NCBI GenBank assembly: GCA_032622095.1
Contig: CP136063.1
Coordinates: forward strand, 38,850,106-38,914,105
Reading direction: 5' to 3'
DNA from: Siphonodentalium dalli
Lineage: Eukaryota; Mollusca; Scaphopoda; Gadilida; Siphonodentaliidae
Length of the DNA stretch: 64,000 bases
Shown here: positions 22,803 through 56,399 of the stretch, piece by piece
Layout of the letters: every line of letters starts with the position of its first letter
Position numbering within the stretch: position 1 is the stretch's first letter
Position numbers and translations under genes: made by a program
The notes under the pieces: model-generated
The model's input: the letters and a program-made list of their open reading frames with translations, nothing else
Told to the model about the DNA's origin: nothing
The model's database searches: none

Positions 22803-23082
22803 TGGTTTCAAAGAGCATCCCAAGACCACTGAATGGGATGTATGGGGCTCGGAGAGCATTCCAAGACCACTGAATGGGATGTATGGGGCTCTGAGAGCAT
22901 CCCAAGACCACTGAATGGGATGTATGGGGCTCAGAGAGCATCCCAAGACCACTGAATGGGATGTATGGAGCCCAGAGAGCATCCCAAGACCAGTGAAAGG
23001 ATGTATGGAGCTCAGGACAGCATTCCACGACCACTGAATAGGATGTATGGGGCTCGGAGAGCATCCAAAGACCACTGAAAGG
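22803..23082. repeat. 41-bp minisatellite, left part (~6.7 units)
   Basis: Units start AGAGCATCCCAAGACCACTG and continue AATGGGATGTATGGGGCTCGG. Successive starts at 22812, 22853, 22894 and 22935 are exactly 41 bp apart. The array is cut at 23082 by a hAT-like element and resumes in phase at 24322. Confidence 0.9.
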
Positions 23083-24321
23083 TAGTGCTGGGATGGTTGG
23101 GGTTTTTTCCTAACCAGTTAACCACGGGCATTAACCTAATCATAACCGGTTAACCGCGACCATCTTTAACCTAAGTACGAGATTGAATACACTGGTCACT
23201 ATAACGGCAAACGCGTCCTGAAAACGTTTATATACATCCGATCACAAACGATGTCTTGGTCGTACAATGCGGCCCCGTTACGCCGATCAAATAGTGGTAA
23301 ATGTGTCGAAATTAATTCAGTTTTGAGCCCAAACAAACTAAAATATAGTATATACTAGTAGTGCGCTAGTATATCTATGTTTACGGGAGTCCTGCATCGC
23401 ATAAACAACGCTTGCTTGCAAAACGTTCAGCGACGAAATATAGTTCCTTCCTCGTGTATATCCCGGACACAATTAGCCCAAAAATGTGCACAACAAGGTA
23501 CTGATTTTACTTAAGGTAGGTATACTGTTGTTTAGTAATGTTTACTAGTGTTTGGGTATAGGTACATGTAGGTATGTATTAATCACAGTGGCTGCACAAT
23601 GTTACTTCAATTATTTAATAAACATTCAAACAAAATTAAATCGTCGTGTTTCATTACACAAGCCCCAGTCAGTGTTTACGAAATAAAGTTATCGAACACA
23701 TCACTAGATATACTCTGAGTTCCCACTCCCAGTAGGCCCATGTGTTTTTTCTAGATGTGCGACTTCATATTGGATGTTGATACAGAATAAACGAATCGCG
23801 TTTGGCAGGCCTTGTATTAAGCCCATTTCTTCTTTATTTTTCGTCATCATCAATTATTACTAAATGTCCCCAAACGTTCGATTTCCGTTTTTGTAGGTCT
23901 TCTGCCATCGCTTTGAGAAGAATTACGGTAATGATAATGGCAAATGGGGGACAGTTTCAAGAAAACAGAAAGACTATTAATGACGTAGTAAATGTCTAGA
24001 CTTGATTGCTTTGATGTATGCCGCGGTGCGCGTGCAACTGGAACGTAATGTAATGCCGCCAAAGGAAATTGGCATTGAATGTGTAGCAAGTGATTCGCAG
24101 ACTGACACAGTGTAGTTGTTGGTTTCATGTCTAGAAATGCAACCCATGATCAAATGGGCTTGTGTTGTGGGGGTATATGAATACGGCAACATTTACACGG
24201 AGTACTACGATGATAGTACGATCGTTATCAATAGTACTATTATTCGGTTGTGGCCTCCTCCATCCGGTTGACACGCGTAACCGAACCGCAACCGGATATC
24301 TGGACAACCGTCCCAGCACAA
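23083..24321. mobile_element. hAT-like element inserted in the 41-bp minisatellite
   Basis: A 1239-bp element begins TAGTGCTGGGATGGTTG and ends with the complement of TTGTGCTGGGACGGTTG. The flanking 8-mers CTGAAAGG (23075-23082) and CTGAATGG (24322-24329) differ at one position and come from the same place in the 41-bp unit, as expected for an 8-bp hAT duplication. Subterminal AACCGGTTAACC-like words occur at both ends. No transposase frame is readable. Confidence 0.8.
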
Positions 24322-24552
24322 CTGAATGGGATGTATGGGGCTCTGAGAGCATCCCAAGACCACTGAATGGGATGTATGGGGCTCTGATAGCATCCCAAGA
24401 CCACTGAATGGGATGTATGGGGCTCGGAGAGCATCCCAAGACCACTGAATGGGATGTATGGGGCTCGGAGAGCATCCCAAGACCACTGAATGGGATGTAT
24501 GGGGCTCGGAGAGCATCCCAAGACCACTGAATGGGATGTATGGGGCTCGGAA
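24322..24552. repeat. 41-bp minisatellite, right part (~5.6 units)
   Basis: This is the same unit as at 22803-23082 and is very homogeneous. Unit starts at 24346 and 24387 confirm the 41-bp period. Apparent minus-strand frames across it are repeat artefacts (a translated SHSVVLGCS motif). Confidence 0.9.
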
Positions 24553-48319: not shown

Positions 48320-49053
48320 GACAGCATCACGTCCGGTCGTAAGGTCACTTTAATAATTATGTTCACATCCGGTCGTAAGGTCGCTTTAATAATTATGTTC
48401 ATGTCCGGTCATAAGGTCGCTTTAATAATTATGTTCACGTAAGGTCGCTATAATAATTATGTTCACGTCCGGTCGCAAGGTCGCTTTAATAATTATGTTC
48501 ACGTCCGGTCGTAAGGTCACTTAATTATGTTCACATCCCGTCGTAAGATCGCTTTCATAATTATGTTCACGTCCGGTCGTAAGGTCACTTTAATAATTAT
48601 GTTCATATCCGGTCGTAAGGTCGCTTTAATAATTATGTTCACGCAAGGTCGCTATAATAATTATGTTCACATCCGGTCGTAAGGTCGCTTTAATAATTAT
48701 GTTCACGTCCGGTCGTAAGGTCGCTTTCATAATTATGTTCACGTCCGGTCGTAAGGTCGCTTAAATAATTATGTTCACGTCCGGTCATAAGGTCGCTTTA
48801 ATAATTATGTTCACATCCCGTCGTAATATCGCTTTCATAATTATGTTCACATCCGGTCGTAAGGTCACTTTAATAATTATGTTCACGTCCGGTCGTAAGG
48901 TCACTTTAATAATTATGTTCACATCCGGTCGTAAGGTCACTTTAATAATTATGTTCACATCCGGTCGTAAGGTCGCTTTAATAATTATGTTCACTTCCCG
49001 TCGTAAGATCGCTTTCATAATTATGTTCACATCCGGTCATAAGGTCGCTTTAA
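48320..49053. repeat. 36-bp minisatellite, left part (~20 units)
   Basis: Units read TTAATAATTATGTTCACG then TCCGGTCGTAAGGTCGCT, with occasional deletions (for example near 48437 and 48640). Because 36 is a multiple of three, stop-free frames arise on both strands with a 12-residue repeat (MFTSGRKVALII). These are artefacts. The array abuts the acceptor of minus-strand exon 1 and so probably lies in an upstream intron. Confidence 0.9.
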
Positions 49054-49573
49054 AGGTGGATTATCTCTTTGTAAACATGTATTATATAGTTACCGGGGTA
49101 TAAAATATTAGATTTGAATCGAAGACTCCTGTCCGGAAATGCTTCTATCGATTAATATTAATTTTATTTCGAATATTTTCTGGTCTAAAAAGGTGTGTTT
49201 GTTCAGCTAACGAACAATATTGGTTACTGTTAACAGAGACCAGAAATTATATTGTGCAATTTTGTCACAAATAAACGTTAATTATACTCATTATCGCTTA
49301 TATCTGTGGAACAAAACAGTACAAACAACCAATCTGTGACATTTGACATTCGTTGCGTAGCCGTAGGAACAGCCCAGTGCTCTATATCGCAATACGGTCT
49401 CATCCGAATGGTCGGTTCTAAAAATAGTAACATAAATGGGCCCGATTTAATATTCGAAATAAAATCAATATTAATTGATAGAAGCTTTTCCGGACATAGG
49501 TCTTCAGTTCATATCTATTATTTTATACCCACGCAACTATTTAAAATTTGTTATTTAAAGAGATAATCCATCT
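49054..49573 (+). mobile_element. TTAA MITE family B inserted in the 36-bp minisatellite
   Basis: The 520-bp element is flanked by TTAA (49050-49053 and 49574-49577). Its ends are AGGTGGATTATCTCTTT and the complement of AGATGGATTATCTCTTT. The minisatellite unit GCTTTAATAATTATG is restored exactly if the element and one TTAA are removed, so the insertion limits are certain. It is non-coding and nearly identical to 50666-51183. Confidence 0.95.
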
Positions 49574-49785
49574 TTAATAATTATGTTCACATCCGGTCGT
49601 AAGGTCGCTTTAATAATTATGTTCACGTCCGGTCGTAAGGTCGCTTTAATAATTATGTTCACGTCCGGTCGTAAGGTCGCTTTAATAATTATGTTCACGT
49701 CCGGTCGTAAGGTCGCTTTCATAATTATGTTCATGTCCGGTCGTAAGGTCCCTTTAATAATTATGTTCACGTCCAGTCCACAGGG
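49574..49785. repeat. 36-bp minisatellite, right part (~6 units)
   Basis: The same unit as the left part, resumed in phase after the MITE, and very homogeneous (ACGTCCGGTCGTAAGGTCGC). Confidence 0.9.
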
Positions 49786-51690: not shown

Positions 51691-53262
51691 TAGTTTAACT
51701 CAAGCCTAAATTGAGTTATTTAAGTTTTAAATTCCAACTAAATCGGTAAATCCCGTGTCCTGATTTTTTCAATATTCAATCATCGTAGTAAACAACGTTT
51801 AGAACGACTAACGAAATTTGGGGAATACGAAAACCCAGAATACGTCCCCCTTTCGCTCACAATATTACACAAACCCTCCGACTTCCCTTCGAAATATTTA
51901 TTACAAGAGAATTCACCAAATGAATCGACGACTGATCAGGACCATCATCAGGTGATAGATCGATATGAATGCCAGTTACCACTGCGATTGGTTAAAACCA
52001 AATTGTATAGAATTAGGGCTTCAACCCGCCCAACAATACATGGTGTCCTTGCTTGGCCGAATTCCAAAAGTTATGTACTACAAGCGTTTGGACTTTGCTA
52101 AAAGACTGAACCTGATTGTCAAATTTGTCTCGACGGTAAACCACATTTCCAGTTGTCAAGCGACGCAAGTGTCATCGGGAATAGCATATATATTTACTCA
52201 ACATAGTTGAACATATCGAGTTAGAAAAGGATACTATAGTATAGAACACTTAGTTTTGGCATAGACGAGATAATGGTTTTATTAATTACCAGAATTTGTC
52301 AAGTCACCAGAACGAAATTGTCCGAATAGCGGAATTTAACCAGTGAATTTACTTTTCATTCCGAATATTGATCGAGCATGAGGTTGTCACTGGTTGAGTG
52401 GTTGTGTATCGGGTATGTTATTCCCCCCGACGTCAACTTGTCAAAATTAATGACAATGATGTGATTCTAGCGAACAGTGAGAAATTGTTCAGTTTCTTGT
52501 ATCTGTTTAAAAAAAAAACGCGATTATATCGTTAACAGCGGTTTTAATTTCCAAAAATAGCGGTTTTTATTTTCGTTAATATCGTCCAGCCCTACCCATC
52601 AGCTTACCGATACTTCAATATTTGGAAAAAAAATTCGAACGCATCATCGGCATTCGGCACTGGAATATTAGCCCACCTATAGAGAATCAACACTTTCAAT
52701 AAATTTCAACATGCTTATAATATCGTATCTTTTTGAAGTATTTACGATTAGTTTCCACGACGATGTAAATTTAATCAGTTTCCAAATAATTTTTTTTTTA
52801 ATTAAATGGCAATACGAAACGCTCCTTCTTTCTACCATATAAGGCAATAATAAACAAGTCACAAAGCTGCATATAACTCCAACTTAAATGTGGGTAAATG
52901 CGCCAAGAAAACTGATCGAGTGTAAAATAAGTGTTAAGATACACATATACTAATACATCGTCGCCTTGTCTTGCGTCATCCTTATATTAGACAAATACTA
53001 TTTTCCTCCTGGCAAAAAAAAAACCTTTAAGGCCGCCTGTCTTTTTACAAAGATTGCTGATCGCAAGCCCAGATAAAGGACGAGGGGAGTTTAAACAAGT
53101 CGATAGTACTAGTCGTGATAGAAATTATTAGTCTTCTCGCGAACAAAGCAATTCAATTATTACCTATCGCTGATTAACCAAGCAGTAGGCCTACCTGTAA
53201 ATGACGAAATACCAAGCTGAAGTTTTCGCGATCGCCGCACTGTTTTACGCTCACCTAGTTCC
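51691..53262. other. Unassigned DNA with a solo hAT-like end
   Basis: Near 52550-52598 the sequence TATCGTCCAGCCCTA resembles a hAT right end, but no left end was found. No gene is recognised. Confidence 0.35.
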
Positions 53263-53266
53263 ATAA

Positions 53267-53716
53267 GGTTAGAAGGAACTAAATAAGTAGAATTACGTCC
53301 CTTTCGTTTTTACAGGGTATCTCGAATACGAGTTTAAAAAATTCTGGCGCGCGATTGGCGTATAATATGTCAAATAATTTTTCAAATTCAAGAAATATAA
53401 TACCCATAGCATGTAAAAACGTGGGCGTTTCCTAGTCTGAAATGCGTTCGTGTCCAAACAATGGCGGGATATTGAGGCTGTGTATTGGCTTTCGTCAGAC
53501 TGTCAAATTCTGTGCAAAAAGTGGGGTAGTGTGGAAAACATATGCTGGTTTTTTAAAAAGGCGTGGCTCGAAAGGTACTCCTATGTGCGAACAGATTCCG
53601 AAAGGGTTGGTCTTTACGAACGCATGCATCGTGCACTTCGGAACTCGAAAATTTAGCGTGGGCGTGGTCAAACGTTAACACTGTGGCCTATGGAAAACAT
53701 TTAGTTCCTTCTAACC
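53267..53716. mobile_element. E module, copy 1
   Basis: The terminal inverted repeats are 18 bp and perfect: GGTTAGAAGGAACTAAAT and its complement. The 450-bp interior has open frames that repeat in each copy but match no domain. Inner E copies are flanked by TAA on both sides, whereas the outermost flanks are ATAA. Confidence 0.85.
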
Positions 53717-54608
53717 TAAAGCAGAAAAATCGAATTTTTCGTATTTCGGCTTATGATGGACAAAGGTGGTGAAAAATCACATAATTGTGATCTGATTTGC
53801 GAAGCATACATAGTTAGACATTACATTACGCCAGAATTTGGATTTTATTGCCATTTTTCAGGAAGTGGGGAATATTTGCACCTAATAACCTTAGTGAGAT
53901 TTTCATTTATTTATCGTTATTCTGTATCTGGTGTGCCACTTTAAGAGAGAAATAACCTCACATCGATATCTTTATCTATTTGTGGACATCTGACCATCAG
54001 CATAAACTTGATGTCTCGAGTATTTTTAACCATGCAGCTGCCAACTTGTCGACCACTTGGAAATTCCTATCTTCCTGATGCAAGGGGGGTGGGGGTGTAA
54101 AAATCTAACTATTTATTCAGAAACCCGGACAATTTTGGTCAACTAAGCATATCATCTGAAACATGATTTGCACGTATTGTCTATGCCGCTATATACATGC
54201 GCTTCATGCCCATTAAAGGCACCTTCTGTTATTTTAATTACCAAATTTTACCAAAATTTCCACATATTTTAAGAATTTTCCCAAATATGGCAAATCTCGG
54301 CATGAGATGACCCCGAGACACCCATAATTTTTTATGTTGAACTGCAGACAGTACTGATCAATTCCCAACTATTAATTCTTTTATTTAGGAAGGGACGTTC
54401 CCATCATTGGCAACGACATGGACAAATTTCCACCAAAATTTCCCCAGTAGATCAACCATCTTCAGATACAGTGGGGTTAAAATAACCATGATTGCTGGGG
54501 AACGAGAACAAAGAAATGTGTAAAATCAGTTTTATTTAGCATAGATATGACACAGCTTCACGCAGAGGTAGTAGGAATTACATAGGGTCATGTTTGCACA
54601 TCTCTTAA

Positions 54609-55058
54609 GGTTAGAAGGAACTAAATAAGTAGAATTACGTCCCTTTCGTTTTTACAGGGTATCTCGAATACGAGTTTAAAAAATTCTGGCGCGCGATTGG
54701 CGTATAATATGTCAAATAATTTTTCAAATTCAAGAAATATAATACCCATAGCATGTAAAAACGTGGGCGTTTCCTAGTCTGAAATGCGTTCGTGTCCAAA
54801 CAATGGCGGGATATTGAGGCTGTGTATTGGCTTTCGTCAGACTGTCAAATTCTGTGCAAAAAGTGGGGTAGTGTGGAAAACATATGCTGGTTTTTTAAAA
54901 AGGCGTGGCTCGAAAGGTACTCCTATGTGCGAACAGATTCCGAAAGGGTTGGTCTTTACGAACGCATGCATCGTGCACTTCGGAACTCGAAAATTTAGCG
55001 TGGGCGTGGTCAAACGTTAACACTGTGGCCTATGGAAAACATTTAGTTCCTTCTAACC
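54609..55058. mobile_element. E module, copy 2
   Basis: It appears identical to copy 1. The left flank is CTCTTAA and the right flank TAAAGCAG, so a TAA duplication from an ancestral insertion into L sequence is plausible. Confidence 0.85.
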
Positions 55059-55949
55059 TAAAGCAGAAAAATCGAATTTTTCGTATTTCGGCTTATGATG
55101 GACAAAGGTGGTGAAAAATCACATAATTGTGATCTGATTTGCGAAGCATACATAGTTAGACATTACATTACGCCAGAATTTGGATTTTATTGCCATTTTT
55201 CAGGAAGTGGGGAATATTTGCACCTAATAACCTTAGTGAGATTTTCATTTATTTATCGTTATTCTGTATCTGGTGTGCCACTTTAAGAGAGAAATAACCT
55301 CACATCGATATCTTTATCTATTTGTGGACATCTGACCATCAGCATAAACTTGATGTCTCGAGTATTTTTAACCATGCAGCTGCCAACTTGTCGACCACTT
55401 GGAAATTCCTATCTTCCTGATGCAAGGGGGGTGGGGTGTAAAAATCTAACTATTTATTCAGAAACCCGGACAATTTTGGTCAACTAAGCATATCATCTGA
55501 AACATGATTTGCACGTATTGTCTATGCCGCTATATACATGCGCTTCATGCCCATTAAAGGCACCTTCTGTTATTTTAATTACCAAATTTTACCAAAATTT
55601 CCACATATTTTAAGAATTTTCCCAAATATGGCAAATCTCGGCATGAGATGACCCCGAGACACCCATAATTTTTTATGTTGAACTGCAGACAGTACTGATC
55701 AATTCCCAACTATTAATTCTTTTATTTAGGAAGGGACGTTCCCATCATTGGCAACGACATGGACAAATTTCCACCAAAATTTCCCCAGTAGATCAACCAT
55801 CTTCAGATACAGTGGGGTTAAAATAACCATGATTGCTGGGGAACGAGAACAAAGAAATGTGTAAAATCAGTTTTATTTAGCATAGATATGACACAGCTTC
55901 ACGCAGAGGTAGTAGGAATTACATAGGGTCATGTTTGCACATCTCTTAA

Positions 55950-56399
55950 GGTTAGAAGGAACTAAATAAGTAGAATTACGTCCCTTTCGTTTTTACAGGG
56001 TATCTCGAATACGAGTTTAAAAAATTCTGGCGCGCGATTGGCGTATAATATGTCAAATAATTTTTCAAATTCAAGAAATATAATACCCATAGCATGTAAA
56101 AACGTGGGCGTTTCCTAGTCTGAAATGCGTTCGTGTCCAAACAATGGCGGGATATTGAGGCTGTGTATTGGCTTTCGTCAGACTGTCAAATTCTGTGCAA
56201 AAAGTGGGGTAGTGTGGAAAACATATGCTGGTTTTTTAAAAAGGCGTGGCTCGAAAGGTACTCCTATGTGCGAACAGATTCCGAAAGGGTTGGTCTTTAC
56301 GAACGCATGCATCGTGCACTTCGGAACTCGAAAATTTAGCGTGGGCGTGGTCAAACGTTAACACTGTGGCCTATGGAAAACATTTAGTTCCTTCTAACC
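55950..56399. mobile_element. E module, copy 3
   Basis: It appears identical to copies 1 and 2. Its right flank is the unique sequence ATAATATGAACTCGG, not L. Confidence 0.85.

Follow-up and report, generated by a model that had tools for sequence, protein, structure and literature searches.

According to the main text of Kojima and Bao (2022; Mob DNA 13:24, PMC9587614), KolobokP elements are organised as LTDR-INT-LTDR, with long terminal direct repeats (LTDRs) of ~450 or ~660 bp, each with its own terminal inverted repeat (TIR) of 11–18 bp and RR...YY ends. Target-site duplications (TSDs) of 3–4 or 4–5 bp lie outside the whole unit. The same text describes solo LTDRs, multimers of the form (LTDR-INT)n-LTDR whose outermost ends carry TSDs, and LTDR-(INT)n-LTDR forms with 3–4 bp lost at INT-INT, and it gives sizes of 1,738–3,261 bp for non-autonomous families in oyster. 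Unequal exchange, nuclease-induced exchange and circle integration are listed there as amplification routes. Two other systems show a partial likeness. Bacterial composite transposons also have two short mobile elements in direct orientation that move the DNA between them. Xenopus miDNA4, a MITE with satellite cargo, combines a short TIR element with a spreading tandem repeat; in the parts of PMC12628747 and PMC9659126 that describe it, however, the repeat lies inside one TIR element, whereas in the present case each boundary of the repeat unit is occupied by a complete TIR element.

The repeat analysed here, in which a 450-bp element (E) alternates with a longer sequence (L), is very probably a non-autonomous KolobokP DNA transposon in the form of a multimer, (LTDR-INT)2-LTDR, with E as the LTDR and L as the INT. 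It is a new family within the published KolobokP architecture. With the elements described in that main text it shares an LTDR of ~450 bp with its own TIR, TSDs, solo copies, multimers and the loss of bases at INT-INT junctions, and its single E-L-E unit, at 1,791 bp, falls within the oyster range. A complete relative in the genome, described below, also shares a transposase and a His-Me nuclease with KolobokP. It differs in the interior of L, which has no match to the INT of its relatives, and in an 88-kb multimer and INT-only arrays.

Repeat anatomy in the window

The window, i.e. the whole stretch of 64,000 nucleotides that was analysed, is C3:38850106-38914105 of a 2.23-Gb genome in 9 contigs. 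All three E of the composite are 450 bp long and identical, each with a perfect 18-bp TIR and GG...CC ends, and one base in a G run is the single difference between L1 and L2 (Table 1). ATAA stands outside both outer E and TAA on both sides of the inner E. The period of 1342/1341 bp is outside the range of TRF, for which the longest period was 500. A sequence-only reading had given this anatomy exactly, with three 450-bp TIR elements E and two L of ~892 bp at near-total identity, the two periods and both pairs of flanks. Its description of the locus as a eukaryotic analogue of a composite transposon was also borne out, this being the architecture in the main text on KolobokP.

Table 1. Features of the composite E(450)-L(892)-E-L(891)-E at window 53267-56399
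Feature	Window position	Strand	Remarks
Left target-site duplication ATAA	53263..53266	.	With the flanks joined by one ATAA, 38 other places match across the junction
LTDR 1 (E1), 450 bp	53267..53716	+	TIRs 53267-53284 and 53699-53716
INT 1 (L1), 892 bp	53717..54608	+	Start TAAAGCAG, end CTCTTAA
LTDR 2 (E2), identical to E1	54609..55058	+	
INT 2 (L2), 891 bp, G run one base shorter	55059..55949	+	
LTDR 3 (E3), identical to E1	55950..56399	+	
Right target-site duplication ATAA	56400..56403	.	Flank comparison and joined-flank search

In a mechanical listing of ORFs of at least 50 aa, the longest ORF starting inside L1 has 63 aa and the longest inside E has 78 aa. The window copy has no long ORF and would therefore be non-autonomous. 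This also marks the difference from bacterial composite transposons, in which the transposase lies in the flanking element: E has no ORF above 78 aa, and the likely transposase gene is found in the INT of other elements. Rfam gave no match within the window at family cut-offs, and below the cut-offs nothing credible inside E or L, the two L matches having an E-value of 0.76.

The window also holds other repeats and a ribozyme-like match. A match resembling a type-P1 twister ribozyme (window 53024-53090, + strand; 50.9 bits against a family cut-off of 67.2, E-value 1.3e-9) ends 176 bases before the insertion and is unlisted at the family cut-off. Arrays of 36-bp units at window 48327-49053 and 49572-49778, ~500 bases apart, have units that look alike, as do the 41-bp tandem arrays at 22812-23079 and 24321-24551, the second of which is 98% uniform.

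Dispersed copies, target sites and gene-bearing relatives

Genome-wide, the 5' end of E occurs 889 times at up to 2 mismatches, the E-L junction 356 times, and an L-L junction without E 175 times (at up to 2 mismatches to a junction short of 3 bp); the reversed-pattern control gave 0 for each. The recurrence of E and of the E-L and L-L junctions is far from chance. Positions were inspected among the first 100 listed per pattern. Among these matches, E-L units are scattered over separate sites and also form long arrays, on several chromosomes. On C1, the exact 5' end of E has 98 listed matches: a single long array accounts for 66 of them, composites for 16, and solo or partial E for the other 16. 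The sequence-only reading had named a restriction of L to this locus as evidence against itself, but L was found elsewhere, as were the E-L and L-L junctions. Compared with L-E-L, the L-L junctions are short of 3 bp, or of 4 bp at loci L030 and L038. They are probably better read as the product of LTDR loss, as in KolobokP, than as remnants of a pre-existing L satellite; an initial reading of E as an ordinary MITE trapped in such a satellite was dropped once the match to KolobokP was recognised.

Next, the outer flanks of 21 E...E loci were read at both ends. These loci were the best or first listed matches and no random sample. An exact 4-bp outer duplication is present in 16 of the 21, while shuffled pairing of right and left flanks gave a mean of 1.23 exact pairs and a maximum of 7 in 10,000. 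The 16 duplications are ATAA (window), AAGC, TGCA, TTGA, TTAA, TGGA, TATA, TATT, TCGT, ACAT, TGGT, ACAA, TGCT, TATA, TATA (nine E, 11.2 kb) and TGGT (the 88-kb array). Units with such duplications at separate sites include E-L-E, E-L-E-L-E and E-L-L-E, and the multimers include forms with 2, 4 and 8 L besides the 88-kb one. The inserted units thus evidently end in the outermost TIRs of two E, hold L between these, and sit at separate sites with 4-bp duplications. Solo E with both ends complete carry an exact 4-bp TSD in 6 of 12 cases (L007, L009, L018, L022, L026 and L064) and none in the other six.

The five inexact loci vary in kind. At L021 the 5' side shows AA in addition to AGCA, and at L034 the 3' side shows TA in addition to TTTT; these AA and TA are the L bases that adjoin E inside arrays (...TTAA|E|TAAAG...). 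The two L-like extra bases, found in only these two cases, hint that units may have been excised from arrays. L039 has TTGCA on both sides, i.e. five bases or four plus T, and the TTGC(A) of L042 is accompanied by two or three further bases, which do not match L. L050, with TTCT versus TTCC, is the oldest locus (E 94–96%). Several loci were excluded from the 21: L056 as an inverted duplicate of L020; C2:74.28-74.33 Mb (L045, L068, L069), whose left edge is a truncated L without E and whose right edge is E; C8:12.54, C8:13.34 and C3:65.4 Mb, with an edge in N or not reached; and the L arrays at C6:123.9, C8:37.2 and C8:46.5 Mb, whose left edge is truncated, falls in N or lies beyond the part that was read. 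L020 and L056 (C1:168.967 and 168.977 Mb) are inverted copies of one E-L locus, ~10 kb apart, with a common outer flank.

The window flanks, joined with one ATAA, were used to search for the empty site, and 40 of 503 candidates were scored. Two of these are the window's own halves; the other 38 lie elsewhere and cross the junction at 94–100% identity. As assessed from match coordinates and identity, they extend just 11–17 bases into the left flank because the repeat of the right flank begins there. Judging from these matches, the E-L-E-L-E unit sits in another dispersed repeat, with exact ends and ATAA apparently duplicated. The host repeat starts ~11 bases left of the insertion (window 53256-53266) and resumes beyond it to at least 56509.

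Relatives with genes were sought through the PF05551 nuclease family. Of 390 candidates in the genome, 150 were scored, and several are in tandem at 4.0–4.9 kb; 14 control genomes gave no match to PF05551. LTDRs were scanned 5' of the nuclease at 47 of these places, in ~3.3 kb at 12 and in ~1.3 kb at 35; a further piece, L117, duplicates L077. At three of the 47 (on C7, C4 and C6), the nuclease adjoins an LTDR with the E-type TIR, of 450, 450 and 448 bp respectively, the C4 LTDR having one mismatch at one TIR end. Other nuclease places have LTDRs of 450–453 bp with other TIRs, one has an LTDR of ~650 bp, and at 24 of the 47 the simple scan found no TIR pair. At L081 (C2:178.17-178.21 Mb), C8:164.87-164.90 and C6:79.18 Mb, nuclease matches spaced regularly by 4.0–4.5 kb suggest long autonomous KolobokP multimers.

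The C7 relative is complete (C7:31085691-31090618, 4,928 bp). Its LTDRs of 450 and 449 bp are 99.3% identical, its TSD is TGCA/TGCA, it has the same 18-bp TIR, and its INT runs from TAAAGCA to TCTTAA, with ends as in L. A 623-aa ORF matches PF20700 (Mutator-like transposase, 5.4e-43), a Pfam name that is Mutator-like and not Kolobok. Its motifs follow the order D, CCHC, D, DTTH, second zinc finger and E, as given for KolobokP in the main text of PMC9587614. A 139-aa ORF matches PF05551 (1.7e-11) and the solved I-PpoI structure (best E-value 3.3e-5). The two ORFs are predicted to encode a DDE-type transposase and an I-PpoI-like His-Me nuclease, respectively. The C4 copy has the TSD GTTA/GTTA and a broken transposase frame, and the C6 piece has one LTDR and no transposase-length ORF. 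L and the INT of these relatives gave no match, agreeing at the ends only. Along their whole length, the three LTDRs are just 60% identical to E, so that the C7 element is no more than a candidate helper. Four E whose interior is foreign (L061-L064, 6 kb each) were rejected as autonomous partners: three are without a second TIR, and the fourth is an E with an insertion of ~0.8 kb. For the transposase, the comparison with KolobokP covered the motif order given in the published main text.

Origin of the multimer and competing explanations

In trees of 76 E copies and 42 L copies, most loci cluster by locus, and both trees give the same two large subfamilies with L050 as an older outlier. As exceptions, L030 is split in the E tree and L010, L028 and L043 each take in solo E from elsewhere, and L065 is split in the L tree. 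E and L distances were compared over 18 of the 21 loci (omitting L020, the nine-E C4 array and the C1 array) and are correlated, with a Mantel r of 0.69 and none of 9,999 permutations as high. Within the subfamilies the correlation is weak (r of 0.45 and 0.27; 1,234 and 1,531 of 9,999 permutations as high), so that it rests on the split between the subfamilies. That E and L moved together is argued because E-L-E, E-L-E-L-E and E-L-L-E recur with 4-bp duplications at the outermost E. At seven of the eight loci with at least two L (the window, L028, L030, L041, L042, L052 and L055; the exception is the nine-E C4 array), at least one allele absent from the other sampled loci is common to all E or to all L; the window has one such allele in E and one in L. 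Private shared alleles are as expected if arrays grew in place, and arrays inserted ready made would look alike.

We propose that a KolobokP-type transposase, acting in trans, would recognise the outermost TIR pair and move E-L-E. Insertion at the window site would have duplicated ATAA inside another repeat, and one L may then have become two through unequal exchange, perhaps nuclease-induced, among the directly repeated E. The multimer could instead have been inserted ready made.

The sequence-only reading had proposed another history, in which a solo E stood at ATAA, a second E had entered L elsewhere, and an extrachromosomal E-L circle was integrated by homologous recombination and then amplified. 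This would give the same final structure with the TSD unchanged, and circle integration is a possible route in the main text of PMC9587614. Integration of a circle into a resident E should leave a first and a last E that differ as resident and circle did. At six of the same 18 loci no substitution separates the first from the last E; the number is 1 at five loci, 2–4 at five, 7 at one locus and 20 at another, i.e. 0–4 at 16 of the 18, yet among the solo or partial E of C1, 12 of the 16 are 78–93% identical to the window E. The four closer ones are L007, L011 (with an internal deletion), L023 and L024 (only 132 bp). Among the 46 first-to-last differences, 30 are private to their locus and 16 are alleles also seen at other sampled loci, which makes the KolobokP reading slightly less and the circle slightly more likely. 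One E site varies between two common alleles in several loci, and some exchange among copies is therefore possible. The extra bases at two loci that match the flank of L in a donor are unexpected for a resident E, a weak point at two cases of two bases. The 14 E-TAAA-E junctions in one array, on the other hand, are readable as traces of circles. Taken as a whole, the circle history is improbable. A circle is not needed for dispersal, as the units carry TSDs at their outermost ends (16 of 21). For the amplification step, a circle that joined an E within an E-L-E already in place is a possible route, and the sequence-only interpretation as a whole is partly supported. As routes to copy number, unequal exchange, nuclease-induced exchange and circle integration are indistinguishable here; amplification by exchange between E repeats is likelier than a circle.

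Two further explanations concern the nature of the repeat itself. Near-identical tandem copies, in a structure known from the assembly alone, might be an artefact, with one L at the true locus or copies collapsed or multiplied by the assembler. This is highly unlikely given the one-base difference between L1 and L2, the presence at separate sites of loci with two, three, five and nine E, each with a TSD of its own, and the multimers described for KolobokP in the main text of PMC9587614. A miniature LTR retrotransposon (TRIM), with E as the LTR, L as the internal region and multimers formed by LTR recombination, would likewise show direct repeats at its ends, solo copies of these, multimers and a short TSD. 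Such an origin is scarcely credible, as E ends in GG...CC with an 18-bp TIR and not in TG...CA, L-L arrays without E exist, and the complete relative with the same TIR encodes a transposase ORF and a His-Me nuclease ORF.

Long arrays and a possible satellite link

At C1:195.94-196.03 Mb, an 88-kb array with at least 66 E contains L-L junctions as well as the E-TAAA-E junctions mentioned above, and is bounded by E and TGGT on both sides. Among the matches listed, L-only stretches with an 888-bp period are found on C8 and C6. In the main text of Kojima and Bao (2022; PMC9587614), taken apart from its supplements, the word 'satellite' is absent. The duplication-bounded 88-kb array and the 888-bp L-only arrays go beyond what that text describes.

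In this genome the family seems to transpose to new sites and also to expand into long arrays. KolobokP multimers may be a two-way source of satellites, a possibility for and against which we see about equal weight: a unit would jump with a TSD, exchange between LTDRs would build a long array, LTDR loss would leave an 888-bp INT satellite, and excised units would seed new loci, where they may carry two array bases on one side.

The architecture is already published, and the gain here lies in the scale, the satellite link and the possible traces of donor flanks. The outer TSDs at separate loci and the empty site are sequence evidence that, in an animal-type element, a pair of short non-coding TIR elements carries the intervening DNA along as a single unit. 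The birth and dispersal of satellites is an old question, and this genome holds copies from the monomer to the long array, so that donor, jump and growth might be followed within one family.
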